Below are positions 2,106 through 11,142 of a DNA stretch of 64,000 bases, one piece after another. How positions within the stretch are numbered: position 1 is the first letter of the stretch; every line of letters begins with the position of its first letter. Source of the DNA: Minicystis rosea (GTDB lineage: Bacteria; Myxococcota_A; Polyangia; Polyangiales; Polyangiaceae); contig CP016211.1 of NCBI GenBank assembly GCA_001931535.1, positions 10,586,377 to 10,650,376 of the forward strand, given 5' to 3'. A model generated the notes under the pieces. The model did no database searches and had not been told where the DNA came from. It was given only the letters and a program-made list of their open reading frames with translations. The position numbers and the translations under genes were made by a program.

Positions 2106-3728
2106 TCAACGCACCCAGGCGTTGCGCGCGAGGTTGCCGCGACCGGTGGGCCAGAGGAGGCAGTTCGTCGAGGAGCCGGGCACGGTGTAGACCTGGACGC
2201 TCTCGACCTTGTCTTCGGCGTCCTTGAGGGACACGACGATCTCGACGGTGCCGTCGCCGTCCACGTCGGCGAGCGTCGGCACCGGCATGGCGCCGCGGCG
2301 GGGCAGCGGGATTTGGTGCTGCACGTTGCCGCCGCCGTCGAGGATGAAGAGCGCGCCCTTGCCGTCGTCGGGCGAGTACGTGTTGAACACGATCTCGGGG
2401 ATCCCGTCGCCCGAGAGATCGCCGACCACGACGCCGCCCGTGAGCACGTTGTCGTCGGTGGTGTAGGTCAGGGACCAGAGCTCTTTGCGATCGGCGGTGA
2501 CCGCGTGGATGCGGCCGTCGAAGCCGGCGAAGATCATCTCCGGGCCGGGGTGCGAAGGATCGATGTCGGCGACGGTGACCTGGTTCGTCGCCGCCACGAC
2601 GTTGGTGCCGTCGAAGTCCCAGAGACCGGCGAGGTAATCGGGGGCGTGGAAGGGCCTCTCCCAGCCTTGCAAACGGCTCGCGTCGTGGTGCACGACCCAG
2701 AGGGCCACGCCCTGCTCGCGATCGGACTGCGAGGCGTTCTGCACGCTCGCGAGGAGGATGATCTCGGGGACGCCGTCGCCGTCGACATCGGCGATCGCGG
2801 GCGCGGTGTTGGTGAAGTGCGCTTGCAGCGCGGTGTCCTCGTGCTCGGAGTAGCCTTGCTTGGCTTCGCCGAGATCGTGCAGGTAGCGCACGCCCGGGGT
2901 CTTCTTCACGGGGAACATGGGGTTCGCATCGAACGCTTCGCCCGTGTGCTTGTGGAAGCTCGCGTAGGCGTCGTCGTGGCCGACGACCACGTCGGCCTTG
3001 CCGTCGCCGTCGAGGTCGCCGAGCGCGACGTTCTGATCGTAGCAACCGGCGAGGTAGCACTTGTCGTCGATGTCGCAGCCGCTCACGCCGGCTCCGTTGG
3101 GCGGGAAGCCGGGGATCTCGCTGCCGTCGGCGTGCCACGCGGCCATGACGTCTTCGGGGCTGCCGTGCGCGGGCGCGGCCACGAGATCGAGCTGGCCGTC
3201 GCCATCCACGTCGGCGGCGGCGAGGCTGCGCAGCTCGTCTTCCCACGTGACGGGGAAGCCGGGGAGCACTTCACCGGCGGCGTCGAGGAGGAAGATTTGA
3301 TCGCGCGACGCGATGGCGACCTCGAGCTTCCCGTCGCCGATGAAGTCGGCCACGACGGGGCTCGCCCAGATGCGTCCGACGTCGGTGTCGAACGACCATT
3401 TCACGGTGCCATCGGGTTCCCACACGACGAGGCGCTCGTCGCGGGGCACGATGATCTCGTTGATGCCGTCGCCGTCGAGATCGGCGACCGCCGGCGATCC
3501 GAGCCAGGCTTCGTGCCAGCGATCGCTGAGCGTCACGAGCAACGTGGGCTTCTGCACGGTGGCCGTGCCCTGGTCCGTCGCCGTGCACGACGGCGCCGGA
3601 GGCAGGGGTCCGCCGGTTCCAGAACCGCCGCTGCCCTTGTCACCGTGGCACGAAGCGACCACGACGGTTGCGAAGATCGCGCCCGCGAGCGCGCGCGTCG
3701 GAAGACCGAAGCGTAAAGCCGTGTTCAT
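2106..3728 (-). CDS. FG-GAP/VCBS repeat lipoprotein
   Basis: 540 residues. The signal sequence ends in VVASC, a permissive lipobox, followed by a Gly/Ser linker. The body has repeated calcium-binding motifs of the DxDGDG type: DLDGDGINEI, DVDGDGQLDL, DLDGDGKADV, DVDGDGVPEI, DLSGDGIPEI, DVDGDGTVEI. Each is followed by a hydrophobic strand. This is the FG-GAP/VCBS beta-propeller pattern, as in integrin alpha-like bacterial surface proteins, so an extracytoplasmic Ca2+-stabilised propeller is expected. The ligand is unknown. The gene lies between other minus-strand genes for exported proteins, but gaps of over 30 nt give no clear operon evidence. Confidence 0.8.
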   Translation of the reverse strand: MNTALRFGLPTRALAGAIFATVVVASCHGDKGSGGSGTGGPLPPAPSCTATDQGTATVQKPTLLVTLSDRWHEAWLGSPAVADLDGDGINEIIVPRDERLVVWEPDGTVKWSFDTDVGRIWASPVVADFIGDGKLEVAIASRDQIFLLDAAGEVLPGFPVTWEDELRSLAAADVDGDGQLDLVAAPAHGSPEDVMAAWHADGSEIPGFPPNGAGVSGCDIDDKCYLAGCYDQNVALGDLDGDGKADVVVGHDDAYASFHKHTGEAFDANPMFPVKKTPGVRYLHDLGEAKQGYSEHEDTALQAHFTNTAPAIADVDGDGVPEIILLASVQNASQSDREQGVALWVVHHDASRLQGWERPFHAPDYLAGLWDFDGTNVVAATNQVTVADIDPSHPGPEMIFAGFDGRIHAVTADRKELWSLTYTTDDNVLTGGVVVGDLSGDGIPEIVFNTYSPDDGKGALFILDGGGNVQHQIPLPRRGAMPVPTLADVDGDGTVEIVVSLKDAEDKVESVQVYTVPGSSTNCLLWPTGRGNLARNAWVR

Positions 3729-3761
3729 GGACGGATTGTACGGCCGCGCGAGGCTGCCGTG

Positions 3762-4391
3762 TCAGTCGCGTCCTGCATCCATCGGGCCGGCATCGGACGG
3801 CGCGCCCGCCTCGGGCACGCCGCCGTCACGGTGCCCCACCGCACGCACGCCGCCGTCCGGGAAGTCTCCGGGCTTGGCTTCGGTGAGGCCGCTCTTCCAG
3901 GGGATGAGGCGACCATCGGGCTCGGGGGGCCAGTCGAGCTTCTGGGTCTCGCCGGTCTCGCGATCGACGAGGAGCAGGTACGCGGCGCGCGGGTTGTCGG
4001 CGATGCGCACCGTGAGGCGCGAGGTGACGTTCTTGTCGAAGCGCGGGCGCGGGAGCTTGTTGCGGTTGCCCTCGGGCGGCTCGTCGCCCATCAAGGGCAC
4101 GTTGAAGCGCACGCGATCGAGCAGCTCGCGGCCGACGTAGAGCTCGAGGGCGAAGCGGCCGATGATGCGCGCGCTCTCCGCCGGCTGCGCGAGCGTCGTC
4201 GCGGTGGCGCGCTCCGCGGTCACCTTGCCGGCGCGCGCGGTGATGTCGATCGTCCACTGCTTCCGGCTCGCATGCGGAGGCGGATCGGGCGGGTATCCCC
4301 CGCGCGGCGGCTCGGCGAAGGCGACGAGCCCGCCGGTGCCGAGCACCACACCGAGGAGCGCGGCCGTGACGAGGGAGCGAAGAGGACGCAT
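3762..4391 (-). CDS. Exported protein of unknown function
   Basis: About 209 residues from ATG 4391; a TTG two codons upstream is less likely. An N-terminal signal peptide (MRPLRSLVTAALLGVVLG..VAFA) is followed by a Pro-rich stretch. A single soluble domain rich in beta strands comes next, then a low-complexity Asp/Gly/Ala tail (VRAVGHRDGG..DAGPMDAGRD). No family is recognised and no catalytic motif is visible. Likely periplasmic. Confidence 0.6.
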   Translation of the reverse strand: MRPLRSLVTAALLGVVLGTGGLVAFAEPPRGGYPPDPPPHASRKQWTIDITARAGKVTAERATATTLAQPAESARIIGRFALELYVGRELLDRVRFNVPLMGDEPPEGNRNKLPRPRFDKNVTSRLTVRIADNPRAAYLLLVDRETGETQKLDWPPEPDGRLIPWKSGLTEAKPGDFPDGGVRAVGHRDGGVPEAGAPSDAGPMDAGRD

Positions 4392-4561
4392 GGGCAAAGC
4401 GGTTTCGAGCGAGGGAGCGCGCAGTCATTCCATGCGCCGCGCGCGCCGTCGAGCCGAGAAAGGAGGCGCGACGCGGGAAGGAGGCGAGCGCTGCGAGCGA
4501 GCGTGGGTGGTTTCGGATATGGGAGGCTTCCGCGTCGATCGAAATGCGCGGTCGCCGGCGA

Positions 4562-7480
4562 TCAGGCGGGGCGCGGGCCCTCGGTCTCCGGCGGGGGGAT
4601 GAGGCTCGGGGGCGCGCGATCGTCGAGCCGTTCGACCACGCCGCGGTCGCCGTCGACGCGCAGGCGATCGCCGGTGCGAATGGCGATGGTGGCGCCGGGG
4701 ACGTTGACGACCGCGGGGATGCCATACTCGCGTGCGACCACGGCTGCGTGCGAGAGCGGGCCGCCGAGCTCGGTGACGACGGCCGCCGCCACCAAGAAGA
4801 GCGGCGAGAGCCCGACGTCGGTGGTGCGTGAGATCAAGATCTCGCCGGCCGCGACGGCATCGAGGCCGACGGCGCCGGGCTCGAGCACGCGGGCGCGGCC
4901 TTCGACGACGCCCGCGCTCGCGGGCAGGCCGGCGAGGCGCGTGCCCGGCACCGGTGGGAGCAAGATCGGCGGCGGGCGGCCGATGAAGGTGGCCGGCGGA
5001 TCGGGGCGCGCGGCGTCGCGCACGTGCTCGGCGCGGCGCAGGCGCACGACGTGACCGACCTCGGCGCGGCCGCTGCGGAGCGCGGCGATGAGCTCGTCGT
5101 AGGTGCAGAAGAAGACGCTGCCCTTCGCGAGCGTGGGGTCGATGCGGCGGAGGCGGCGATCGACGTCGAGCGCGATGGTGCGGATCATCCCGAGCACGCG
5201 CGTGACCCAGGTGCGCATGCGCTCGCGGAGCCGGGTGAACCGCTGCGTGCGGGCCACGAGGGCGCGGACCACCGCGAGCTCGACCGAAGAGACGCGCGTC
5301 TCGAGGCGCGCCATCTCGCGATCGGCGAGCGCGCGCGCGCGGGCCAGGGCGCGCTCCGGATCGCTGGGAGGCGCGCGCAGCGAGGCCACGAGCATGGCGA
5401 TGATCTGCGTGGCATCTTCGCGCCAGCGCGGCGTGGCGAGCTCGGCCTCGCGCACGGCGCGATCGCCGTAGAGCTCGAGGAACTCTTCGACGGCGCGGCG
5501 GGTGGCGCCGTCGGGGAGATCGGCGAGGCCGTGGATCTCCCCGGCGAGCAGGCGATCGCGCGTGGCCGCGTCCGCGCGCACGATCTCGGCCATCTTCGCG
5601 AGCGCGATGCCCGGGTTCGCGCTGTCGAGCTCGCGCGCGCCGCCGACGAGGGCCTGCGCGATGGGCTCGGCGGCGCCCCAGCCGGCGCTGGGATCGATGT
5701 GATCGACCTCGGTGACGCCGCTGCGGGCCGAGGCGCGCCGCCGGCCGACGCGATCGAGCACGCGGCACAAAGCGAGGTGGCTCGCGAGCGAAGCCGAAGC
5801 GCACGCGAGCATGAGGGTGCCGGTGCGTTCGAGGAGCTGGGTCGCGCTGCGGAGCGTGGTGGCGAGGCCATCGTCGGGCAGGATGCCGAGATCCATGTCG
5901 AAGAGGCCGCGGCGCGCGCGATCGATCTCGGCCTCGAACGCGGCGACCTCGCGCTCGAGCCGCGCTTGCCGCGCGATCTGGCGGGGCGCGGTGAAGGGGA
6001 GGCGCAGGAGGAAGCGGCCGTGCGAAACATCCTCGATTTGCCGCTCCAAGAGCGCGATCGCGGCTTCGTTGGCGCCGCCGCTCGCCGTGAGCAGCGCGCG
6101 CGGGCCGAGGCCGGGCACCTGCGCGGCGATCTGCATGAAGGCCGAGAGGTTCAGGTAGAAGCGGCCCTGCACGTTGCCCACGAGGGTCGCGTCGCGCGGC
6201 ACTTTGCAGCCGAGGGCGGTGAACGCTTCATGGAAGCCTCTGTCCGAGAAGGCGCGCGCGATCGACCAGGTGAGCGGTGTGGCCGGGCCGGGCAGCGCTT
6301 CGCCGACGTTGGCGCGCGACCACACCGTGTCGGCGTCGCCGCCTTCGGGGAATCCACCGCCGGTGACGGGCCGCGCTTGCAAGAGCCACACGCGCGGCGG
6401 CGCTTCGCCGAGGCGCGACTCCCACTCGGTGATGGCGGAGCCGTCCTCGTCTTCGGCGGCGACGGCGAACTCCACGTCGAGCGGCGCCGGGGTGTCGCGA
6501 CGCAGGAGCGACGAGTCGGATCGGGTCGCCTTGAACAGCGCGGGGGCGCGCGCTTCGAGCTTCTCGGCGAGGGCCGCGATCTCGCGGAGCACCTCGCGCG
6601 AGAGCGCCGGCGCGCGGGCCTTGCGATCGGCGACCTCGATCTCCTGGACGCCTTCCGTGCCGACCACGAGCGCGCGCCTTTTGTCCGCGATCACCGCGTG
6701 AGAAACCGCGCCGCCTTCGCGCGCGATCCGCACCGTGTCCGCGGTGGCGGCGCCTTCGACCACCGGCGCGCCCAGGCCGAGCGTCGCGTTGACGAGCCGC
6801 TCGTCGAGATGCCAGTGCTCGCCGTCGAGCCCCGGCGGCGGCGCCGTGAAGAGCACGCCGGCCGCTTCCGCGCGCACCACGATTTGGAGCACCACGGCCA
6901 TGCCCAGCTCGCGCACGCCCGCGTGCGAGAGGTACGCGAGCGCCCGCGGCAGGTACGCGCTCGCCCACACCTTGCGGACCGCATCGCCCATGGCCTCGGG
7001 CCCGCGCACGCCGAGCACCGTCGCGGCCACGCCGGCGAGCGACGTCTCTTCCATGTCCTCGCAGGTCGCGCTCGATCGCGCCGCGAAGCCCCACGGCGCC
7101 TCGGCCTCCATCGCCTTCCACAGCGCTTCGAGCGCGTGCCGGAGGCCATCGGGCAGGTCCATCCCCAGGATGTGATCGCGCGCCCGCGCCGCGCGATCGA
7201 CGCCGGCCTTGGTGTGGGCGAGCTTGATCAGCGTGGCGATGTCGTGCCCGCGAGGCAGGGCGCCCTCGACGTCACGCTCGAACCGGCGCGCGTCGATCAC
7301 CCACCCGCGCGGGACCGGGAAGCCCTCGCGGATCAGCCGCCCGAGCGACGCGGCCTTGCCGCCGACGCGCTTCGGGCTCGATTTGCGACCCGAGCCCGCC
7401 GCTTCGAGGGGCATGAGCCACTCGGCGATCTCCGGGGCCGAGAGGAGGCCGCCGCGGGCATCGTGGGGAGCGGAAGGCAC
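4562..7480 (-). CDS. PEP-utilising/phosphohistidine enzyme, rifampin-phosphotransferase-like layout
   Basis: 972 residues. The N-terminal ATP-grasp (PPDK_N) domain has VGGKAASLGRL near residue 40 and FAARSSATCEDMEETSLAG as the nucleotide-binding loop. A long helical middle region spans about 400-860. The swivelling phosphohistidine domain lies at the very C-terminus: GGPLSHAAVVAREYGIPAV, catalytic His about residue 911. PEP synthase and PPDK carry a PEP/pyruvate barrel after the His domain; here only about 60 residues follow. The order ATP-grasp, substrate domain, His domain is that of rifampin phosphotransferases and related dikinase-like enzymes, which phosphorylate a small molecule while cleaving ATP to AMP and Pi. 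The substrate is unknown. The start used is GTG 7480; an ATG at 7414 is also possible. Confidence 0.85.
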   Translation of the reverse strand: MPSAPHDARGGLLSAPEIAEWLMPLEAAGSGRKSSPKRVGGKAASLGRLIREGFPVPRGWVIDARRFERDVEGALPRGHDIATLIKLAHTKAGVDRAARARDHILGMDLPDGLRHALEALWKAMEAEAPWGFAARSSATCEDMEETSLAGVAATVLGVRGPEAMGDAVRKVWASAYLPRALAYLSHAGVRELGMAVVLQIVVRAEAAGVLFTAPPPGLDGEHWHLDERLVNATLGLGAPVVEGAATADTVRIAREGGAVSHAVIADKRRALVVGTEGVQEIEVADRKARAPALSREVLREIAALAEKLEARAPALFKATRSDSSLLRRDTPAPLDVEFAVAAEDEDGSAITEWESRLGEAPPRVWLLQARPVTGGGFPEGGDADTVWSRANVGEALPGPATPLTWSIARAFSDRGFHEAFTALGCKVPRDATLVGNVQGRFYLNLSAFMQIAAQVPGLGPRALLTASGGANEAAIALLERQIEDVSHGRFLLRLPFTAPRQIARQARLEREVAAFEAEIDRARRGLFDMDLGILPDDGLATTLRSATQLLERTGTLMLACASASLASHLALCRVLDRVGRRRASARSGVTEVDHIDPSAGWGAAEPIAQALVGGARELDSANPGIALAKMAEIVRADAATRDRLLAGEIHGLADLPDGATRRAVEEFLELYGDRAVREAELATPRWREDATQIIAMLVASLRAPPSDPERALARARALADREMARLETRVSSVELAVVRALVARTQRFTRLRERMRTWVTRVLGMIRTIALDVDRRLRRIDPTLAKGSVFFCTYDELIAALRSGRAEVGHVVRLRRAEHVRDAARPDPPATFIGRPPPILLPPVPGTRLAGLPASAGVVEGRARVLEPGAVGLDAVAAGEILISRTTDVGLSPLFLVAAAVVTELGGPLSHAAVVAREYGIPAVVNVPGATIAIRTGDRLRVDGDRGVVERLDDRAPPSLIPPPETEGPRPA

Positions 7481-7578
7481 GCCCTCCGCTTATCACGGCT
7501 CGGCGCCGCCGGGATCGGGGCGCCGCACTTGCGTGAATCGCGAGCGACCGGACGGGCGAGGTCATGCCTCGCGGCGCG

Positions 7579-8172
7579 CTATTCGTCCGGCTCGTCGTCG
7601 CCGAACAGCACGTCCGCGTACAGCTCGACCGCATCGAACGGTTCCGCGCGCACACGCTCTCCGCGCTGCGCGGCGAGCACCTCGATGTACCCGTCCGGGC
7701 CCCAGCGATTCACGGCGAGCGTCTGCTCGATGGGATCGAGGATCCAGTAGTGGGGGACGCGGTCCTGGTGATAGATGCGCTTCTTCTTGACGAGATCGTT
7801 GCGCCGGTTCGTCGAGAGGATCTCGCAGATCCAATCGGGCACCAGCGCGATCGGCGTCCCCGTCGGGCGCTGCTCGGCGCGCTCGCGCCGCCAGCCGACG
7901 ATGTCGGGCCGGAGCACATTTCCGCGGCTCATGAGGATCTCGACCTCGGTCGCGAACCACCAGCCGCCCGGCCGTCGCCCTCCTGGCCGCCGGTCGAATG
8001 GACCGCCCAAAGTAACCACGACGCGCGCCTGCGCGCCGCCGTGCTCGCCTGTCGCAGCGCCCTTCTCGATCAGATCACCGTCGATGAGCTCGTGCCGCCG
8101 CTCCTCCTCGGGGATGGCGAAGAGATCGTCGAGCGTGGCCGGTGCGGGCGGGACCTTCTTTGCGACGCTCAT
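7579..8172 (-). CDS. Uma2 family PD-(D/E)XK nuclease-like protein
   Basis: 197 residues from ATG 8172 (MSVAKK); the longer frame to 8208 adds an unlikely N-terminus. Uma2 (DUF820) signatures are present: HELIDGDLI near the N-terminus, RPDIVGW (putative metal-binding Asp), PDWICEILS (Glu) followed by a conserved Lys-rich stretch (KKKRIYHQ), and VPHYWILDP. Members have a restriction-endonuclease fold and are found in many copies in cyanobacteria and myxobacteria. Their cellular role is not established. The gene is downstream of sdhB on the same strand, with a 73-nt gap. Confidence 0.85.
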   Translation of the reverse strand: MSVAKKVPPAPATLDDLFAIPEEERRHELIDGDLIEKGAATGEHGGAQARVVVTLGGPFDRRPGGRRPGGWWFATEVEILMSRGNVLRPDIVGWRRERAEQRPTGTPIALVPDWICEILSTNRRNDLVKKKRIYHQDRVPHYWILDPIEQTLAVNRWGPDGYIEVLAAQRGERVRAEPFDAVELYADVLFGDDEPDE

Positions 8173-8245
8173 GCTGGCAGGATAGCGCGAGCCGGCGTGC
8201 GGGGGCATGGGGGCGCGCCCGGCCTCGCCGAGCGCGCGGGGCTCG

Positions 8246-9034
8246 CTACTTCAGCAGCCAGCCGAAGAGCATGTGCTTCGTGGTGTCGCGGGCGACGCTG
8301 GAGATCGAGTCGACGAGCGGGATCTCCTTGGGGCAGACCTCGACGCAGTTCTGCGCCTTGCCGCAGTCGGCGATGCCGCCCTCGGTCATGAGCGACTCGA
8401 GGCGCGCCGTGCGGTGCATCGCGCCCGAGGGGTGCATGTTGAAGAGGCGCACCTGGTTGATCGCGGCCGGCCCGATGAACGGCGACGACTCGTTGAACTG
8501 CGGGCACGCCTCCACGCAGCAGCCGCAGGTCATGCAGCGCGAGAGCGGGTAGCGCTCCTGCTGCTGCTCCTGCGACTCGCGCGGGCCGGGGCCGAGCTCG
8601 TGGGTGCCGTCGAGATCGATCCAGGCCTTCACGCGCTTCAGGTTGTCGAACATGCGGCTGCGATCGACGACGAGGTCGCGCTCGCAGGGGAACTTGCTCA
8701 TCGGCTCGATGGTGATCACCTCGCCGTTGGGCGCGATCTGCTCCACCAGCGCGGAGCAGGCCTGCCGCACGCGGCCGTTGATGATCATCGTGCAGGAGCC
8801 GCAGACCTCCTCGAGACAGGCGGCCTCCCAGACGGGCGGAGCGACCTCCTTGCCGTCGAGGGTGACCGGGTTCTTCCGGATCTGCTCCAGCGCGCTGTTG
8901 ACGTTCATCTGCGGCAGGTAGGGGACCTTGAACTCCTCCCACCGGCGCGTCTCGGGCATGTCGCGCCCGTCCTGCCGGCGCACCTTGAGGTGAACGAGCC
9001 TTCCGCTTCCCTTGCTTTCGTTCGTCTCGGCCAT
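8246..9034 (-). CDS. sdhB: Succinate dehydrogenase/fumarate reductase iron-sulfur subunit
   Basis: 262 residues. An N-terminal ferredoxin-like domain has the [2Fe-2S] ligands in CLEEVCGSC and a later Cys (RVRQAC). The C-terminal domain has the [4Fe-4S] and [3Fe-4S] clusters in CMTCGCCVEACPQ and CGKAQNCVEVCP. It passes electrons from SdhA flavin to the membrane anchor. It is the last gene of sdhC-sdhA-sdhB, 80 nt after sdhA. The sequence style and CAB order match the menaquinone-linked Bacillus/delta-proteobacterial type. Confidence 0.96.
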   Translation of the reverse strand: MAETNESKGSGRLVHLKVRRQDGRDMPETRRWEEFKVPYLPQMNVNSALEQIRKNPVTLDGKEVAPPVWEAACLEEVCGSCTMIINGRVRQACSALVEQIAPNGEVITIEPMSKFPCERDLVVDRSRMFDNLKRVKAWIDLDGTHELGPGPRESQEQQQERYPLSRCMTCGCCVEACPQFNESSPFIGPAAINQVRLFNMHPSGAMHRTARLESLMTEGGIADCGKAQNCVEVCPKEIPLVDSISSVARDTTKHMLFGWLLK

Positions 9035-9114
9035 GTCTTCGCTCGCAGACCCCGCGCCCTCGAAGGGCGCGGTTCGGTTCAGTCACGCTTGTCGGTGCGT
9101 CGCGTGCGTCGCGG

Positions 9115-11142
9115 TCACGCGATCTTCTTCTGCTGCCCCTCGGGCAGCTTGCCCGTCGCGGCGGCGCTGGCGGCGCCGGCCTGCTCGTACTTGCGCTCGC
9201 GCGGCGTCACCAAGCTGGTGTCGACCGCGTCGGTGACGTGGATGCTCTTGCCGCCCACCGAGTAGTCGAGCTCGCGGACGTACTTCACCGCGCCCTTCTG
9301 CTCGTGGACCGCCATCGTCGTGCGCAGCCAGTCGGCGTCGTTGCGCGTCGGGAACGCCGGCTTGTAGTGGGCGCCGCGCGACTCGTCGCGGTTCTTCGCG
9401 CCGGTGGCGATGACGCGGGCGAGCACCAGCATGTTCTCCAGGTGCCGCACGAACTGGGCGCCCTGGTTCACGCGCGCCGAGGTGTCGGGCGTCTTCACCT
9501 TCTTCACGCGCTCGTCGAGCTCGCTGATCTTCTCGAGCACCTTCTCCAGCGTCTTGTTGTGGCGCTCGATGGTGCAGTCGCGGAGCATCGTCTCGCCGAG
9601 CTCCGCGTGAAGCACGTAGGGGTTCTCCGCGTCCTTGCGATCCTGGTTCTGCGTGAGCACGCGCTCGTACTCGCCCTGCGCCCGCTTCTCGGACTTGTCG
9701 AAGATCGACTGCGGCAGGTCGAACGAGCTCTGCGGCAGGTTCTTTTGGTACGTCGCCACCGCGGGCCCGCAGGCCATGCCACCCCAGATGCAGGAGAGCA
9801 GCGAGTTGGCGCCGAGGCGGTTCGCGCCGTGGTACTGGTAGTCGACCTCGCCCACCGCGTAGAGCCCGGGGATGTTGGTCGAGTGGTTGCGCGGCGAGCC
9901 CGTCTTCAGCGAGCCGCGCGCGTCCTTCTCGTAGTCGACCCAGAGGCCGCCCATCGAGTAGTGCACGGCCGGGAAGACCTTCATCGGGTTGTGGTACGGG
10001 TCGACGCCCACGAACTTCTCGTAGATCTCGAGGATGCCCGCGAGCTTCGAGCGGAGGAACTTCTCGTCCTTGTGCGTGAGGTCGAGGTAGACCTCGTTCT
10101 CGTTCTTGCCGGTCTTCTCGTTGAAGATGCCGCGGCCCTCGTGGAAGCACGTCTTGAAGAGCGCGCGCGAGGCGATGTCGCGGGGCACGAGGTTGCCGTA
10201 GCCCGGGTACATCCGCTCGAGGAAGTAGTCGCGCTCCTTCTCGGGGATGTCCTTGGGGTTGCGCTTGTCCTTGCCGTCCTTCGGCACCCACACGCGGCCG
10301 CCTTCGCCGCGGGCGCTCTCGCTGATGAGGCGGAGCTTGTCGGCGCCCGGGATCGCGGTCGGGTGCACCTGGATGAACTCGCCGTTCGCGTAGACCGCGC
10401 CCTGCTGGTACACGGCCGAGGCCGCGGTGCCGGTGCAGATCACGCTCAGCGTCGAGCGGCCGAAGATGATGCCGCAGCCGCCCGTCGCGAGGACGACCGC
10501 GTCGCCGCGGAAGTGGCGGATGGCCATCGTCTTCAGGTCCTGCGCGATGGCGCCGACGCACACGCCGTTGTCGTCGATGACGGCCTGGAGGAAGTCCCAG
10601 AACTCGAACTTCCGCACCATCTTCTCGCCGGGGATGGAGACGCCGTGCTCGTCGACGACGTCCTGCGTCTCCCAGCGGCGCACCTGCTCGTCGAGGGCGT
10701 AGAGGAGCTGCTGCCCCGTGGTCGCGCCCGCGAACGCGGTGCGGTGGAAGAGCGTGCCGCCGAAGCGGCGGAAGTCGAGCAGACCTTCGGGCGTGCGGTT
10801 GAAGGGCACGCCCATGCGGTCGAGCATGTAGACGATGCCGGGGGCCGCGTCGGCCATGCCCTTCACGGGCGGCTGGTTGGCGAGGAAGTCGCCGCCGTAC
10901 GCGGTCTCCTCGAGGTGCACCTGCGGGCTGTCGCCCTCGCCCTTGGTGTTCACGGAGGCGTTGATGCCGCCCTGCGCGCACACCGAGTGGGACCGCTTCA
11001 CCGGCACGAGCGAGATCAGATCCACCGGGACCTTGGCCTCGCAGAGCTTGATGACCGTCATCAAGCCGGCGAGCCCGCCGCCGACGACGATCACGCGCCT
11101 CACCTTACCGCCTTCGCTCCGGATCGTGCTCTTTGCTGCCAT
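9115..11142 (-). CDS. sdhA: Succinate dehydrogenase/fumarate reductase flavoprotein subunit
   Basis: 675 residues. An FAD-binding Rossmann motif VIVVGGGLAGL lies near residue 17. SHSVCAQGGINA contains the His (about residue 52) that covalently binds FAD in this family. HPTAIPG and SARGEGG belong to the substrate site, and GGLWVDYEKD and GANRLGANSLL to the second half of the flavin domain. The C-terminal helical domain is complete. It oxidises succinate to fumarate on the cytoplasmic face. The gene lies 54 nt downstream of sdhC. Confidence 0.97.
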   Translation of the reverse strand: MAAKSTIRSEGGKVRRVIVVGGGLAGLMTVIKLCEAKVPVDLISLVPVKRSHSVCAQGGINASVNTKGEGDSPQVHLEETAYGGDFLANQPPVKGMADAAPGIVYMLDRMGVPFNRTPEGLLDFRRFGGTLFHRTAFAGATTGQQLLYALDEQVRRWETQDVVDEHGVSIPGEKMVRKFEFWDFLQAVIDDNGVCVGAIAQDLKTMAIRHFRGDAVVLATGGCGIIFGRSTLSVICTGTAASAVYQQGAVYANGEFIQVHPTAIPGADKLRLISESARGEGGRVWVPKDGKDKRNPKDIPEKERDYFLERMYPGYGNLVPRDIASRALFKTCFHEGRGIFNEKTGKNENEVYLDLTHKDEKFLRSKLAGILEIYEKFVGVDPYHNPMKVFPAVHYSMGGLWVDYEKDARGSLKTGSPRNHSTNIPGLYAVGEVDYQYHGANRLGANSLLSCIWGGMACGPAVATYQKNLPQSSFDLPQSIFDKSEKRAQGEYERVLTQNQDRKDAENPYVLHAELGETMLRDCTIERHNKTLEKVLEKISELDERVKKVKTPDTSARVNQGAQFVRHLENMLVLARVIATGAKNRDESRGAHYKPAFPTRNDADWLRTTMAVHEQKGAVKYVRELDYSVGGKSIHVTDAVDTSLVTPRERKYEQAGAASAAATGKLPEGQQKKIA

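Follow-up and report, generated by a model that had tools for sequence, protein, structure and literature searches.

A 64,000-nucleotide stretch of the Minicystis rosea genome (contig CP016211.1; called the window below) carries, on its minus strand at positions 4562 to 7480, a gene for a 972-amino-acid protein that we identify as a probable phosphohistidine dikinase of the rifampin phosphotransferase (RPH) type, on the basis of the open reading frames, Pfam domains, orthologs, and a profile match to RPH. We consider it about 75% probable that this protein is an active RPH-type dikinase whose acceptor is not pyruvate and most likely not rifampin, and a small-molecule dikinase is our best reading of the gene. 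Judged from its sequence, the protein shares the three-domain build of RPH but appears to have a different substrate pocket. RPH homologues are known to act on rifampin, a few phenols, and prodigiosin precursors. According to passages of a 2016 study, they are widespread and form a large unexplored group, and the window dikinase appears to belong to a subfamily of RPH-type dikinases, a kind described in that study (PMC4844700).

The reading frame opens with a GTG, just 5′ of which lies a GGAGG stretch. Because matches at 1e-30 were found in 48 of the 59 genomes searched, M. rosea included, and the ratio of nonsynonymous to synonymous substitution rates (dN/dS) between the M. rosea dikinase and its nearest relative was 0.37, we regard it as a real gene and not as a chance frame of high-GC DNA. 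An antisense frame of 908 codons at 5024 to 7750 on the plus strand, which overlaps the dikinase gene, is of the kind that high-GC DNA makes by chance.

Domain order, substrate domain, and catalytic residues

Pfam placed an ATP-grasp domain (PPDK_N, E 1.1e-50) at residues 38 to 374, encoded at 6359 to 7369 on the minus strand, with K42, R135, E337, Q368, and R370 present, and a swivel phosphohistidine domain (PEP-utilizers, E 7.5e-21) with H911 at residues 878 to 947, encoded at 4640 to 4849 on the same strand. Between them lies the substrate domain, residues 386 to 846 (4943 to 6325, minus strand), whose approximate borders come from hhalign and the residue tables. The initial annotation, made from the letters alone, had proposed this very arrangement, namely, an ATP-grasp domain first, a long middle, and a terminal phosphohistidine domain in the RPH order, and the Pfam results bear it out. 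They also agree with its claim that a phosphoenolpyruvate (PEP)/pyruvate barrel is missing: PF02896 was not reported in the dikinase up to an E-value of 10, while the same model found the pyruvate phosphate dikinase (PPDK; L062) and the PTS enzyme I (L061) of the host genome at 2.7e-81 and 4.5e-103, respectively. These two proteins and the window dikinase are the three matches to the swivel-domain family in this genome.

The same annotation had found no recognizable family in the substrate domain. For Pfam this held, as no family was matched between the two terminal domains in the dikinase and the middle was blank in 28 of 28 orthologs (E 0.01). It did not hold for profile comparison, in which hhalign paired 842 columns of the 28-ortholog profile with an RPH profile built from six RPH and RPH-like proteins of the same bacterial family (27% identity, probability 100, E 8e-107). 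By this alignment, the middle domain is homologous to the substrate domain of RPH but diverged from it. The alignment was followed column by column to about residue 772 and is clear from about residue 604 onward, and residues 604 to 953 match the RPH of Listeria (RPH-Lm) by plain sequence. The three best matches among PDB sequences were 5HV1, 5FBS, and 5HV2, which bear the PDB name phosphoenolpyruvate synthase and the last of which we take to be an RPH. The other two are named as RPH in a passage of PMC12167813.

The dikinase was placed in a tree with 99 rows, built by a quick method with SH-aLRT as the only support measure and rooted at the midpoint. RPH fell inside a set of 39 rows (support 99), apart from the group of the window dikinase, which takes in the other 60 rows. 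Under the midpoint root this group is made of parts of 41 and 19 rows, and only a root among the 39 rows would make it a single clade. The nearest named relatives by the dikinase gene are Sorangium and Polyangium, both of the order Polyangiales; 59 rows of the group belong to the order of the window and one (L127) to the same class, and the window dikinase itself pairs with L064 (support 99).

Residue numbers of RPH were taken from passages of Stogios 2016 (PMC4844700) and carried over by alignment, and the positions of Arg666, Glu667, and Lys670 were checked by counting along RPH-Lm. Lys22, Arg117, Glu297, and His825 of RPH are kept as K42, R135, E337, and H911, the Arg666-Glu667 pair is kept as R752-E753, and Thr136, a site outside the residue table, corresponds to T154 by pairwise alignment with RPH-Lm. 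Four positions are changed (Thr523 to S620, Gln336 to G393, Gln337 to E394, and Lys670 to R756), so that the Gln and Lys that hold the phosphate of rifampin in RPH are Glu and Arg in the window protein. All 6 RPH and RPH-like rows carry Q at position 394 and K at position 756, and the 60-row group has E394 in 57 rows and R756 in 59, besides R752 in 60, H911 in 59, and E753 in 58. All seven core residues (K42, R135, Q368, R370, R752, E753, and H911) were found in the window protein and in 53 of the 60 orthologs. Of the seven that fall short, L029 is truncated, L021 departs at E753 alone, and L027, L028, L146, L163, and L164 have lost residues of the ATP site or elsewhere.

The dikinase chemistry and the swivel motion we infer from RPH and HpeHI. 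ATP would be held in the ATP-grasp domain by K42, R135, Q368, and R370, and H911 of the swivel domain would take the β-phosphate, leaving AMP and releasing inorganic phosphate. The charged swivel domain would then move over to the middle domain, where R752-E753 may direct the transfer of the phosphate to the acceptor.

The same three domains could belong to an enzyme of the PigC/RedH type, a ligase or condensing enzyme in which a phosphorylated intermediate joins two molecules and no phosphate ester is released. PigC and RedH condense two pyrroles. The NCBIfam scores lean this way, since the RedH (314.2 bits) and PigC (285.9 bits) models both scored above the RPH model (269 bits). However, these scores are far under the respective cut-offs of 1350 and 1300 bits, the dikinase being under the cut-off of each of the 25 models listed out of 26 matched, and the five neighboring genes scanned include no pigment or peptide cluster. 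We find a condensing enzyme of this type doubtful.

The downstream pseudouridine synthase gene

In most relatives, an RluA-type pseudouridine synthase gene lies directly downstream of the dikinase gene, as seen in neighborhoods called with a simple codon-usage gene finder. PF00849 (PseudoU_synth_2) was matched in 3 of 3 of these partner synthases tested, and the Asp of their RLD motif was invariant in 10 of 10 aligned. In the 60-row group, a possible synthase start lies within 60 bases of the dikinase stop in 43 rows, many of them at −4 (a stop-start overlap), although these spacings lean small as the start nearest the dikinase stop was chosen. The remaining rows comprise 3 that differ, 2 with too little sequence, and 12 with no partner despite at least 1.2 kb. 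The synthase is further off in two of the differing rows (L071 and L121) and in frame with the dikinase in the third, L038, where one open frame of 1148 aa (L038:6953-10396) holds both and reaches the contig end, by fusion or a sequencing slip. When longer flanks were taken for some of the 12 partnerless rows, L025 and L112 had a synthase about 1.4 kb downstream and L020 and L119 still had none. The synthase is thus in the neighborhood in 48 of the 58 rows with enough sequence and absent in 10, six of which come from a single Polyangium-like branch, the others being the window, L066, L020, and L119.

The two genes also occur together at the genome level. Among the 59 genomes searched for the pair, 39 carried the two genes, 9 carried the dikinase without the synthase, 3 the synthase without the dikinase, and 8 neither one (Fisher p 0.001, uncorrected for relatedness), any dikinase match at 1e-30 being counted as presence. 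In the 49 genomes at least 90% complete, the corresponding counts were 34, 9, 2, and 4 (p 0.036, likewise uncorrected). Linked synthases were told from other RluA paralogs of the same genomes by their scores (at least 179 versus at most 164 bits), with the line drawn after the scores had been seen; G037, which has no dikinase match, scores 193. The synthase-only genomes are G037, G057, and G027 (contig edge). The nine dikinase-only genomes include G028, with a diverged synthase beside the dikinase, G046, whose downstream sequence is just 0.9 kb long, and two genomes in which the dikinase match is partial or broken (G017 and G024). In all 39 two-gene genomes, which span nine families, the synthase follows the dikinase on the same contig and strand, within 100 bp in 37 and at about 1.4 kb in 2, as measured from profile and tblastn ends. 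The other neighbors of the dikinase mostly change between families. Outside the group, no synthase adjoined the dikinase in any of the 39 rows (downstream sequence of 1.2 kb or more in 35, less in 4), a comparison in which a spurious second hit of the profile accounts for some of the negative gaps. The synthase gene directly follows the dikinase gene in most relatives of the order, which suggests that both proteins work in a common process in those relatives. A dN/dS of 1.2 obtained for the partner gene between L064 and L065 was rejected as an artefact, as the compared open frames ran into the neighboring gene.

No linked synthase was found in the M. rosea genome, where the best matches were other RluA paralogs (31% identity, 130 bits versus at least 179). 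The place where the partner starts in 37 of the 39 two-gene genomes is here a gap at 4398 to 4561, with about 165 bp between the dikinase and the next gene. Since the sister L064 has the synthase, its loss in the line of the window is the simplest reading, and the case of M. rosea indicates that the dikinase can persist without its partner.

A number of orthologs have altered ATP sites. The residues of this site are changed in various ways in L027, L028, L146, L163, L164, and L174 to L179, mainly at K42 in L028 and L177. The histidine is also lost in L163, L174, and L175 and kept in L027, L028, L146, L164, and L176 to L179. These orthologs have long open frames (785 to 870 aa compared) and an RluA-type synthase in the locus. 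Their pairwise dN/dS by the Nei-Gojobori method was 0.12 (L028-L177), 0.25 (L177-L178), 0.25 (L028-L178), and 0.30 (L146-L179, resting on a dS of 1.4), and with values of 0.12 to 0.30 they look like kept proteins and not like wrecks.

This gene pair hints at an RNA-directed dikinase-synthase module in the order, in which the RPH-like protein would phosphorylate an RNA or nucleotide substrate or position RNA for the synthase, with only the second role open to members without an ATP site, and M. rosea would be a natural case in which the synthase half has been lost. We hold such a link to RNA or nucleotides to be unlikely because the dikinase persists without the synthase. Still less likely, in our estimate, is a non-catalytic or otherwise RNA-linked protein that steers, blocks, or assists the RNA-modifying step. 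The tight linkage in all 39 two-gene genomes, the many possible start-stop overlaps, and the ATP-site-lost members under purifying selection with a synthase in the locus would fit it. On the other hand, M. rosea and nine further rows of 58 hold the dikinase without the synthase, 53 of 60 orthologs retain the full core, and none of the 39 rows outside the group has an adjoining synthase.

The charge of the C-terminal half of the substrate domain was compared as well. Its mean per 100 aa was +2.16 in the family (52 of the 60 rows, leaving out L035 to L038, L127, L146, L163, and L164), −0.91 in RPH-like rows (n = 7), and −1.31 in other Myxococcota (n = 18). Within the family, rows without the partner averaged +4.0 charges (n = 10) versus +5.7 charges with it (n = 42), and some partner-holding members are negative. 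We treat this positive charge as a weak signal and do not build on it.

Rifampin and pyruvate as acceptors

A true rifampin phosphotransferase, for which the shared architecture and catalytic residues would speak, is very improbable. The dikinase scored 269 bits with NF041857 versus a cut-off of 999, and RPH identity was rejected on this count. In addition, Q336-Q337 and K670 of RPH are replaced by G393-E394 and R756, and the window dikinase does not group with RPH in the 99-row tree. Three of the 59 genomes (G019, G020, and G021) have an RPH above the NF041857 cut-off; besides it, the window dikinase has a full ortholog in G019 and in G020 and a diverged one in G021, so the ortholog coexists with a separate RPH in the first two. 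Three genomes from the family of the window encode rifampin phosphotransferases that pass the curated cut-off (L041, L042, and L043). Passages of PMC4844700 report a protein from a distant clade that, when tested, failed to confer resistance to rifampin. As that study also describes many homologues with diverged substrate regions, the enzyme kind is already known.

The name that automatic annotation usually gives, PEP synthase or PPDK, is practically excluded: the ATP-grasp and swivel domains are common to these enzymes and several related NCBIfam models are named phosphoenolpyruvate synthase, but PF02896 is absent, the scores with TIGR01418 (218.3 of 739.75 bits) and TIGR01828 (35.5 of 843.45 bits) are far too low, the swivel domain is C-terminal and not central, and a normal PPDK (L062) is encoded elsewhere in the host genome. 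The separation from these two enzymes, drawn at the outset from domain order, is thus upheld by both the missing barrel and the model scores, the two points on which it could have been refuted.

Several observations weigh against an active RPH-type dikinase. Residues 386 to 600, part of the region that holds rifampin in RPH, align weakly. The AlphaFold2 models were of low confidence, with pLDDT of 37 from the single sequence and 41 from eight aligned sequences (the window protein and seven of nine loci, L038 and L040 being left out as open at the contig end or partial), and were too poor for a fold search. The M. rosea genome offers no operon-mate pointing to a pathway. Lastly, the loss of the ATP site under purifying selection means that catalysis may not be the whole function. 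According to a passage of PMC12167813, HpeH without its ATP-grasp partner still moves phosphate between phenols, and, by analogy, such phosphate passing would be one way for a protein without an ATP site to stay useful.

The subfamily offers a handle on the question of its substrate, having a conserved RNA-modifying gene partner, natural members that hold or lack this partner, and others whose ATP site is gone. There is also a warning for annotation, as such genes may be named phosphoenolpyruvate synthase or rifampin resistance and are probably neither.

The locus, its relatives, and known systems

The host genome is a single contig of 16.04 Mb; it is listed with 14.83% contamination, perhaps owing to duplicated marker genes in a 16-Mb genome. 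The next gene downstream of the dikinase, at 3762 to 4397 on the minus strand, encodes a small protein with an N-terminus that resembles a signal peptide by eye and no Pfam match. Its listed start is a TTG, with an ATG 6 bases inside. A counterpart was found by tblastn near the dikinase in 18 of 28 neighborhoods, which makes it a conserved neighbor in the family. On the other side, a Uma2-family protein (PF05685) is encoded at 7579 to 8208, between the dikinase and genes at 8246 to 11142 (minus strand) that by eye resemble those for succinate dehydrogenase B and A. The five neighbors scanned by Pfam include no pigment or peptide cluster and no aromatic pathway, and one is an HMGL-like synthase (PF00682). 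Nothing promoter-like was found in a scan of 3600 to 8400, and the single terminator-like site compares with 1.1 expected.

Among viral contigs we found no relative of P0001, and the family profile found three, distant or partial. Neither the dikinase nor the partner synthase matched anything in the library of defense systems at 0.1. Matches were found in 224 plasmid records, at less than 60% identity (34% for the first listed), and none spanned 80% of the query in one place among the 15 of 224 listed. In the searches made of the open-licence literature, we found no paper on the dikinase subfamily in myxobacteria or on the dikinase-synthase pair. In another Myxococcota family (f26; L134, L135, L137 to L141, and L143), relatives of the dikinase are preceded by a conserved gene pair (8 and 7 loci), which at L134 encodes, by Pfam, a TetR-type regulator and a CutA1 protein. 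The distant dikinases L149, L152, and L156 are preceded by related genes, that of L149 being an AMP-binding ligase by Pfam; at L149 and L156, a further protein lies between the ligase-like gene and the dikinase, with no Pfam match (tested for L149).

Compared with known systems, the partner synthase shares PseudoU_synth_2 and the RLD motif with the RluA family but differs by its score with TIGR00005 (98 bits for the one partner tested, cut-off 192.7). The window dikinase matches the models of both PigC and RedH prodigiosin ligases (NF052631 and NF052632) over parts of its own length, with the low scores given above. With the phenolic dikinases HpeHI, CreHI, and PpsAB, as described in passages of PMC12167813, it would share the ATP-grasp domain, the RPH-like substrate domain, the swivel His, and the dikinase chemistry, whereas those enzymes are split over two proteins, the window dikinase is a single polypeptide, and its five scanned neighbors include no aromatic pathway. 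The distant RPH homologues of "clade Q", to go by their description in part of PMC4844700, likewise keep the Arg-Glu pair and differ in the rifampin-site residues, but the Lys of the Arg-Glu block is Arg in the window family. The Listeria RPH (5FBS/5HV1; passages of PMC4844700) agrees with the window dikinase in domain order, in the residues of the ATP site, in the Arg-Glu pair, and in the swivel His, with homology along the protein. From it, the window dikinase is set off by 27% profile identity, the replacement of Gln337, Lys670, and Thr523 by Glu394, Arg756, and Ser620, a score below the equivalog cut-off, and its own place in the tree.

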